NCBI RefSeq assembly: GCF_002563855.1
Contig: NZ_PDJQ01000001.1
Coordinates: 744,001-808,000, forward strand
Direction: 5' to 3'
Length of the DNA stretch: 64,000 bases
From: Tepidiforma thermophila
GTDB taxonomy: Bacteria; Chloroflexota; Dehalococcoidia; Tepidiformales; Tepidiformaceae
In this document: positions 19,906 to 22,519 of the stretch, one piece after another
How the letters are laid out: every line of letters starts with the position of its first letter
Numbering within the stretch: position 1 is the first letter of the stretch
Notes under the pieces: generated by a model
What the model saw: only the letters and a program-made list of their open reading frames with translations
Told to the model about the DNA's origin: nothing
Databases searched by the model: none
Program-made: the position numbers and the translations under genes

Positions 19906-19970
19906 GCACGGAGTTTCGCACGCCCGCCCCGGAGGCGCGCCGCTGCTCCCATGCCGTACCCTGTTTCGTG

Positions 19971-21263
19971 ATGGCTTCCCGAACCGGCCGCCCCGTCGCC
20001 GCTGTCCTCACGCTCGGCTGCAAGCTCAACCTCGCCGACTCCGGCGAGATCGCGGCCGGGCTGCGCCGCGCCGGCTTCGACGTCGTCGACCAGGTCTGCG
20101 AGGCCGACGCCTACGTCATCAACACCTGCTCAGTCACCCACGTCGCGGACGCAAAGTCGCGCAAGCTGATCCGGTCGATGCGCCGGCTCGCGCCACAGGC
20201 CCGCGTCGCCGTCACCGGCTGCTATCCCCAATCGGCCGGGTTCGACGCCGTGCGTGAACTCGGCGCCGACTTCGTGGCCGGCACCCGCGACGCCGACAAG
20301 GCCGAGCTCGTCCGCTTCCTCGCCGACGGCGCCGCTGCCCCGGCCGCGCCGGGCGAATCCCCGCCGGCTCCGCTCGCGCCCGGGCTGACCCGCGCCTTCG
20401 TCAAGGCCCAGGAGGGCTGCAACGACGTCTGCGCCTTCTGCATCGTGCCCCGGACCCGCGGCCGCGAGGAGAGCCGCCCGGTTGAGGCCGTCGCCGCCGA
20501 GGTCCAGCGCGCCGTCGAGGCCGGCGCCCGCGAAGTGGTCATCACCGGCACCCAGCTCGGCGCCTGGGGCCGCGACCTCGACCCGCCCCTCCGCCCGCAC
20601 CACCTCATCTCCGGCATCCTCGAACGCACCGAAGTCCTCCGCCTCCGCTTCAGCTCGCTCCAGCCCCAGGACATCACCCCCGAGTTGCTCGCCCTCTGGC
20701 AGGACCCTCGCCTCATGCCCCACTTCCACCTCGCCCTCCAGTCCGGCTCCGAAACGATCCTCGCCGCCATGCGCCGCCGCTACACCGCCGCCGAATTCCT
20801 CCGGGCCGCCGAGCGGATTCGCGCTGTCGTCCCGGGCGTCGCCATCACCACCGACGTCATCGCCGGCTTCCCGGGGGAAACCGAGGCCGACTTCGCCGCC
20901 ACCCTCGACCTCTGCCGCGAGGTCGGCTTCGCCCGCATCCACGCCTTCCCCTACTCGCCGCGCAGCCGCACCGCCGCCGCCCGGATGCCGGGCCAGCTCC
21001 CGCCCGAGGTGAAGAAGGAGCGGATGGCCCGCCTCCTCGCCCTCGCCGAAGAGCTCTCCCTCGCCTTCCGCCGCGCCCACCGCGGCACCGTCCGCCCCGT
21101 CCTCTGGGAGGAGGAAAAAGAGGGCGGCTGGTTCGGCCACACCGACAATTACATCCCCGTCTACGCGGCCGGGGCCAACCTCCGCAACCGCGTGACGCCC
21201 GTTCACCTGGGCGAGGTGTACCATGACGGCGTCCGGGGAACCCTCCCCGCGGAGGCACCGTGA
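19971..21263 (+). CDS. mtaB: tRNA t6A37 methylthiotransferase MtaB
   Basis: This 430-residue radical-SAM enzyme adds a methylthio group to N6-threonylcarbamoyladenosine at tRNA position 37. The N-terminal UPF0004 domain opens with AAVLTLGCKLNLADS and holds the auxiliary-cluster Cys residues (LGC, INTCSVTHVAD, VTGCYPQ). The radical-SAM cluster ligands are Cys150, Cys154 and Cys157 (CNDVCAFC). The Gly-rich FPGETEADF follows, and a TRAM-like domain ends the protein. ATG at 19971 is used; the GTG three bases before it is equally possible. The next gene overlaps its stop by four bases. Confidence 0.9.
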   Translation: MASRTGRPVAAVLTLGCKLNLADSGEIAAGLRRAGFDVVDQVCEADAYVINTCSVTHVADAKSRKLIRSMRRLAPQARVAVTGCYPQSAGFDAVRELGADFVAGTRDADKAELVRFLADGAAAPAAPGESPPAPLAPGLTRAFVKAQEGCNDVCAFCIVPRTRGREESRPVEAVAAEVQRAVEAGAREVVITGTQLGAWGRDLDPPLRPHHLISGILERTEVLRLRFSSLQPQDITPELLALWQDPRLMPHFHLALQSGSETILAAMRRRYTAAEFLRAAERIRAVVPGVAITTDVIAGFPGETEADFAATLDLCREVGFARIHAFPYSPRSRTAAARMPGQLPPEVKKERMARLLALAEELSLAFRRAHRGTVRPVLWEEEKEGGWFGHTDNYIPVYAAGANLRNRVTPVHLGEVYHDGVRGTLPAEAP

Positions 21264-22519
21264 ACGCCCTGCGCCGCATCCTCCTCGCCCTCTACAGCAT
21301 CCTCCTCCTCGCCGCCTGCGGCGGGCTCTTCGCCCTCGCCTGGAACCAGGACAAGAAGCTCGACATCCAGGTCCGCTCCTTCAACCTCCAGGCCTTCATC
21401 GTCTCCAGCGATACCGCCCGCATCGTCTTCGCCGTCATCGTCGGCGCCGTCGCGCTGCTCGGCTTCCTCTCGCTCCTGGCCGCCGTTTGGCGCAGCGGCC
21501 CGGCCCGCTCCCGCGGCGTCCTCAGCCTCCGCCAGGAGGACGGCGGCACCGTCGAGGTCTCTGCCCAGACCCTCGAGGCGCTCCTCCGCGATGCCCTCCA
21601 GGCCCTGCCCGAAATCCGCCGCGCCGAACCGCGCGTCGACGTCCGCGCCGGCGCCGTCGACTGCCATATCGACGCCACCATCGAAGGCAGCGTCAGCATC
21701 GCTGCCGCCACGAAGCTCATGGTCGACGCCGTCCACGCCGTCCTCCGCGAGCAGGTCGGCGTCACGAACGTCCGCCGCCCGGCGATCCGCATCACCTACG
21801 ACGAACTGGCGGCGCGCCCGGCCGGGTTCGCACCGCAGCGCCCGGCCTACCCGCCGGCCTCGCCGCCGCCCGGCCCCGCCGCCCCGCCGGCCCCATCTTC
21901 CCGGCCGCCCGCGGCGTCGACGAGCCCGAGCAGCCTCCATCTGGAGCCCGGGACGATGGCTGACCAGCGCGCATCCCGGCCCCCGGCCGCACACGAGCTC
22001 CCGTGGGTGCTCGAGGCGCTCCTCTTCGTCGCCGATGAGCCGCAGCCCCTCGGCGCGCTCGCCCGCGCCGCCGGCGTCAGCGAAGCCGCCGCCCGCCGCG
22101 CCCTCGCCCAGCTCGCCGCCGACTACCAGGCTCGCGGCCTCCGCCTCATCGAAGACGGCCAGAAGTACCAGCTCGGCGCGGCCCCCGAGTACGCCCCTTA
22201 CATCGAACAGCTCCTCGGCGGCGGCCCCGGGCAGCGCCTCAGCCGCGCCGCCCTCGAAACGCTCACCATCATCGCCTACCGCCAGCCCTGCACCCGCGCT
22301 GAGATCGAAGCGATCCGCGGCGTCAACAGCGACCGCCACGTCGCCATCCTCGAGCAGCGCGGCCTCATCGAGCAGGCCGGCGTCGGCGACGGCCCCGGCC
22401 GCCCGAAGCTCTACCGCACCACCATCCGCTTCCTCGAGCACTTCGGCATCAGCAGCCCGAAGGAGCTCCCCCCGCTCCCCGAGGTGCCCGAGGAGGAGGT
22501 CGTGCAGGCCGAAATCTAA
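21260..22519 (+). CDS. scpB: AmaP/Asp23-like membrane domain fused to ScpB (condensin subunit)
   Basis: One uninterrupted 419-codon frame. Residues 1-80 hold two membrane helices (RILLALYSILLLAACGGLF and ARIVFAVIVGAVALLGFLSLL), and 85-190 form an Asp23/AmaP-like domain (GTVEVSAQTLEALLRDAL, VRRPAIRITYDEL). A Pro/Ala/Ser linker runs to about 232. From Met233 the sequence is ScpB: LPWVLEALLFVADEPQPLG, then LETLTIIAYRQPCTRAEIEAIRGV. That ATG (21956) has GGAGC upstream, so ScpB may also start internally. ScpB works with Smc and ScpA in chromosome segregation; scpA is not in the window. Confidence 0.85.
   Translation: MNALRRILLALYSILLLAACGGLFALAWNQDKKLDIQVRSFNLQAFIVSSDTARIVFAVIVGAVALLGFLSLLAAVWRSGPARSRGVLSLRQEDGGTVEVSAQTLEALLRDALQALPEIRRAEPRVDVRAGAVDCHIDATIEGSVSIAAATKLMVDAVHAVLREQVGVTNVRRPAIRITYDELAARPAGFAPQRPAYPPASPPPGPAAPPAPSSRPPAASTSPSSLHLEPGTMADQRASRPPAAHELPWVLEALLFVADEPQPLGALARAAGVSEAAARRALAQLAADYQARGLRLIEDGQKYQLGAAPEYAPYIEQLLGGGPGQRLSRAALETLTIIAYRQPCTRAEIEAIRGVNSDRHVAILEQRGLIEQAGVGDGPGRPKLYRTTIRFLEHFGISSPKELPPLPEVPEEEVVQAEI

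Follow-up and report, generated by a model that had tools for sequence, protein, structure and literature searches.

A single open frame in Tepidiforma thermophila seems at first to join a membrane anchor to a subunit of the bacterial condensin. In the window (the whole stretch of 64,000 nucleotides that was analysed), positions 21260-22519 of the forward strand form one open frame of 419 aa, with a GTG start and a TAA stop, that runs from a membrane protein of the AmaP type into the condensin subunit ScpB. The original prediction described this frame correctly and proposed that it encodes a membrane-tethered condensin subunit, or two products from one gene. The features needed to judge that proposal are as follows.

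19968-21263, + strand: upstream gene, presumably an MtaB-like tRNA methylthiotransferase (open reading frame list and sequence)
21260-21963, + strand: amaP, with two membrane helices, an Asp23-like domain and a Pro/Ala-rich tail; ancestral stop TGA at 21961-21963, met by the alternative frame downstream of the missing base (NF033218 and the AmaP ends of congeners)
21278-21334, + strand: first membrane helix, residues ~7-25 (hydropathy; model helix 2-28)
21422-21478, + strand: second membrane helix, residues ~55-73 (hydropathy; model helix 51-78)
21518-21799, + strand: Asp23-like alpha/beta domain, residues ~87-180 (inside the NF033218 match; strands and helices in the structure model)
21891-21894, + strand: run of four C, one shorter than the five of the nearest congener (pairwise and five-genome alignments)
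21943-21946, + strand: GGAG, a possible but weakly indicated ribosome-binding site for scpB, 9 nt before the ATG (sequence)
21956-21963, + strand: ATGGCTGA, the scpB start overlapping the ancestral amaP stop (18 of 23 family loci overlap by the same 8 nt)
21956-22519, + strand: scpB, encoding a complete ScpB of 187 aa (TIGR00281, PF04079, 3w6j)

Domains of the open frame

The N-terminal half is AmaP by model score: residues 1-170 match positions 1-159 of the 166 in NF033218 with 66.1 bits against a cut-off of 55, which supplies the N-terminal domain search that had been suggested as a check. Hydropathy peaks at residues ~7-25 and ~55-73 bear out the two membrane helices, the number found in AmaP proteins. 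The Asp23-like domain proposed from the sequence lies within the AmaP match and stands in that form, but the Asp23 family itself (PF03780) is not matched; a Pfam search of the N-terminal half gave no family above cut-off, and the matches that it did give were at chance level. The C-terminal half is a full ScpB, as had been predicted. Residues 250-418 match TIGR00281 with 123.7 bits, and 21956-22516 taken alone scores 126.7 bits (cut-off 89.2 in both cases). PF04079 (SMC_ScpB) is matched with 176.1 bits (E 3.9e-51 in the Pfam search of the frame), and the best solved-structure match of this part is the ScpAB core complex 3w6j, at E 7.7e-38.

Between the two domains lies a stretch rich in proline and alanine (of the 46 residues 187-232, 16 are Pro, 9 are Ala and 7 are Ser). 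A structure model of the frame, of low confidence (mean pLDDT 60, pTM 0.36, 7 sequences), places helices at residues 2-28 and 51-78, alternating strands and helices in the Asp23-like region, and a disordered linker at residues 185-238, where pLDDT falls below 50. A fold search with this model recovers ScpB; the other matches near the top are mostly MamM C-terminal domains (TMt ~0.68, ~10% identity), a generic resemblance on which no claim about the fold of the AmaP domain is based. A type III effector deubiquitinase was also considered for the N-terminal half and set aside as a chance match (NF011421, 14.9 bits against a cut-off of 624; PDB 5haf, E 0.27).

One named class of ScpB also has an N-terminal extension, of ~200 residues, namely NF001106, a 377-aa model. 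The frame matches only positions 204-365 of that model, with 88.8 bits against a cut-off of 300. The match is confined to the ScpB part, and the AmaP half does not match the extension, so that a long-form ScpB was rejected as the source of the N-terminal domain.

Two overlapping genes in relatives

The related whole genomes searched numbered 61, including the window's own, and matches were found in 45; among those without a match was a further member of the genus (G005, 72% complete). From these genomes 30 loci were taken, 24 with both genes (one of them the window) and 6 with ScpB only. None of the 23 family relatives with both genes has amaP and scpB in one frame (the displacement is one base in 21 and two bases in 2). 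The six ScpB-only loci (L025-L030) belong to one genus (g13) of the same family and show no AmaP match at E 1e-3; the whole genome of G017, from that genus, is likewise without a match to the AmaP model.

A broader sample consisted of 148 Dehalococcoidia genomes, of which 54 match the AmaP model and 51 the ScpB model at E <= 0.001; many of these AmaP matches fall below the model's own cut-off, and 19 of the 148 genomes exceed it. Among the 30 genomes matching both models, amaP and scpB lie on one strand within 1.5 kb of each other in 27, and in the other 3 the matches are on different contigs. (The class and family loci behind the pair are 21260-22519, L002-L024 and L115-L134.) One open frame covers both genes in the window's genome and in none of the other 26 adjacent pairs; as the family set also has none (0 of 23), a single AmaP-ScpB frame is absent from both samples of relatives, which overlap. 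The two genes are in the same phase in 7 of the 27 pairs including the window, and when the other 6 were fetched, each had an in-frame stop between the domains. In a phylum sample of 201 genomes, two tables read by eye give the pair within 1 kb in at least nine genomes outside the class (G176, G185, G209, G255, G283, G296, G311, G341 and G349), and no open frame at these nine has room for both genes.

The junction itself is conserved. The amaP stop is TGA in all 23 family loci with both genes, and in 18 of them the overlap is 8 bases, from the scpB start (ATG or GTG) to this TGA; in the remainder it is 4 bases (2 loci) or longer or unclear (3 loci). In overlapping, translationally coupled gene pairs the stop of the first gene lies within the first codons of the second, and the family amaP-scpB pair is built in the same way. 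The window differs from such pairs in that it retains the overlap sequence, yet the absence of one base puts both genes into a single frame. Because the conserved junction is kept, what had been called a possible internal start, the ATG at 21956 with GGAG upstream, reads simply as scpB's own start: it is genuine, and it is the conserved scpB start of the relatives. GGAG also lies 9-10 nt from the scpB start in three of four congeners, which lends slight support to a ribosome-binding site.

The missing base

The nearest congener (G004) is 93% identical to the window in the AmaP part and 96% in the ScpB part at the protein level, and its two halves are in different frames. At 21891-21894 a pairwise DNA alignment sets five C in G004 against four in the window, a difference of exactly one base. 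When the window was aligned with G004, KatS3mg064, an uncultured Dehalococcoidia bin and Tepidiforma flava, the gap at that column occurred only in the window; none of the four congeners lacks the base, and the three other than G004 read GCGCCCA at the site. The single frame at 21260-22519 thus exists because one base is missing relative to four congeners. Such a loss is enough to fuse the genes on paper: in G001-G004 no stop interrupts the frame of scpB for 56 codons or more ahead of the gene's start (these uninterrupted frames hold 243-422 codons, compared with 187 for ScpB), and therefore a one-base loss in the linker would join the two.

The old reading frame can still be followed in the window. 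AmaP of congeners is 234-238 aa long and ends at the conserved TGA; its final stretch is PIFPAARRADQPDQ.. in G004, and the other three congeners have PIFPAARG(V/T)EPPE.. there. The ancestral AmaP tail of the window can be read in the other frame as GPIFPAARGVDEPEQPPSGARDDG, followed by a stop; the same frame gives PIFPAARGVDEPEQPPSGARDDG, after which comes the conserved TGA. T. flava and KatS3mg064 have the same PIFPAARGV as the window. An old fusion would probably have let this tail decay, and since the tail is still readable and undecayed, the loss of the base is likely to be either an error or a very recent event. The PIFPAAR motif of the AmaP C-terminal tail (21891-21963 in the other frame; L002-L005) is kept in four of four congeners.

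These observations make it very probable that the locus is an ordinary two-gene amaP-scpB pair with a one-base loss private to this sequence, whether that loss is an error or real, and the fused frame most likely reflects a gap of one base in an ordinary overlapping pair rather than any feature of the biology. AmaP would be a small membrane protein whose Asp23-like domain lies in the cytoplasm, and ScpB, starting at ATG 21956, would be the kleisin-associated subunit normally found in the SMC-ScpAB condensin. With the amaP stop inside the first codons of scpB, as in relatives, translation of the two would normally be coupled. One C would then have been lost from 21891-21894, in the Pro/Ala-rich tail of AmaP, and as the other frame is open across this tail, that single loss would merge both genes on paper.

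Whether the loss is an artefact of sequencing or assembly or a real, very recent deletion is more evenly balanced, with some lean towards error. It had been suggested that separate genes with a stop between them in relatives would imply a sequencing error; separate genes with such a stop are what was found, and error is modestly favoured over deletion. Changes of a single base in a C run are a common kind of long-read error, which counts against a real deletion, as do the undecayed ancestral tail and the lack of any relative that shares the loss. In favour of a real deletion, such indels have a low background in this assembly. In ~567,000 aligned columns between the window's genome and G004, lengths disagree at only 8 of 3055 C/G runs of at least 4 in clean alignment, the window's genome having the shorter run at 5 of them and the longer at 3. 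When 772 coding-like G004 frames were read in the window's genome, a frameshift filter returned 17 entries; the reverse comparison, of 766 frames of the window's genome read in G004, returned 22, the window locus included. Both counts still include over-extended starts, and in each direction one frame contributes two entries. No excess of frameshifts in the window's genome was found by this filter in either direction; two earlier, looser comparisons of the same genomes had yielded mostly start-codon over-extension and intergenic noise. The window's genome is thus not a poor assembly, which weakens the reading as an error and leaves the two-gene reading intact. The assembly of T. thermophila G233, a type strain of the genus, used no reads other than PacBio (PMC10284905), which would favour error if the window came from G233. 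The G+C content reported is 69.4%; partial samples give 69.2% for the window's genome and 69.6% for G004.

The deletion, if real, would be private and recent and would imply no new function: an accidental AmaP-ScpB fusion, with the last ~20 residues of AmaP replaced, would be made beside free ScpB, which would probably still arise from its own retained start at 21956 and the nearby GGAG. Both domains are intact, so the fusion could be tolerated. We regard this course of events as a credible minority reading. An adaptive fusion, in which a flexible linker lets AmaP hold ScpB, and hence SMC-ScpAB, at the membrane, is very improbable. One frame with intact domains, the disordered linker 185-238 of the low-confidence model and the functional link suggested by the adjacency of the genes (27 of 30 genomes) would all suit it. 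Against it, the fusion is found in no relative, separate scpB genes are the rule in the samples examined, and the stretch that the frame change replaces is conserved in congeners as the tail of AmaP. The tethered subunit of the original prediction is accordingly unsupported, with separate frames in 23 of 23 family loci and no shared open frame in 26 of 27 class pairs. Programmed frameshifting, by which relatives would make some fusion protein that the window has hard-wired, can be given hardly any credence. It is true that scpB keeps the same frame relative to amaP in 21 of 23 family loci, but the 8-nt overlap accounts for this constancy, as coupling would lead one to expect, and in place of the C run the three other aligned congeners have GCGCCCA.

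AmaP, condensin and the neighbouring gene

The ordinary pair thus remains to be considered in its own right. AmaP of Staphylococcus aureus tethers Asp23 to the membrane (PMC6954212). The window's AmaP scores above the family cut-off and resembles it in layout, with an Asp23-like domain after two membrane helices. Unlike in S. aureus, the Asp23 partner seems to be absent, with no match to PF03780 in the whole of the window's genome, and amaP adjoins scpB. The absence of PF03780 speaks against a partnership of the staphylococcal kind, not against membership in the AmaP family by model score. The window's ScpB, for its part, is like the ScpB subunit of SMC-ScpAB in its complete domain (TIGR00281, PF04079) and its best solved match, 3w6j, and unlike the usual ScpB in forming the C-terminal half of a longer frame, in the window sequence only. 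The genome also contains scpA (PF02616), at G000:C1:1325913-1326563, not adjacent to scpB, which lies at 766007.

A fusion would have hinted at a membrane-tethered condensin subunit, but that hint hinges on one base absent in the window alone, and the frame should not enter databases as a fused protein. The pair is mildly interesting and may deserve attention, since amaP directly precedes scpB in most of the sampled class genomes that match both models. This conserved and often overlapping arrangement points to a putative tie between a membrane anchor and chromosome condensation, and the fused frame, if real, would be a natural tether by which such a tie could be tested. A working AmaP-ScpB tie is possible, but shared operons often mean only shared expression. 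It is rather unlikely, on present evidence, that AmaP without an Asp23 partner works together with ScpB in Chloroflexota and places SMC-ScpAB at the membrane. No paper naming both AmaP and ScpB was found in the literature searched.

The gene upstream of the pair, at 19968-21263, is one that we take from its sequence to be an MtaB-like tRNA methylthiotransferase. A same-strand MtaB-like homologue precedes amaP-scpB in 10 of 20 fetched loci outside the genus at 42% identity or more. An eleventh locus has a weaker one at 36%, and the remaining 9 have the pair without this gene, one of them (L126) being cut by a contig end. Because the pair stands without mtaB in several loci, it is not merely carried along with that gene. 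In the window the TGA of the upstream gene overlaps the GTG start of amaP by 4 nt (GTGA, 21260-21263). The same 4-nt overlap reads ATGA in three congeners, and the three genes are chained by overlaps.
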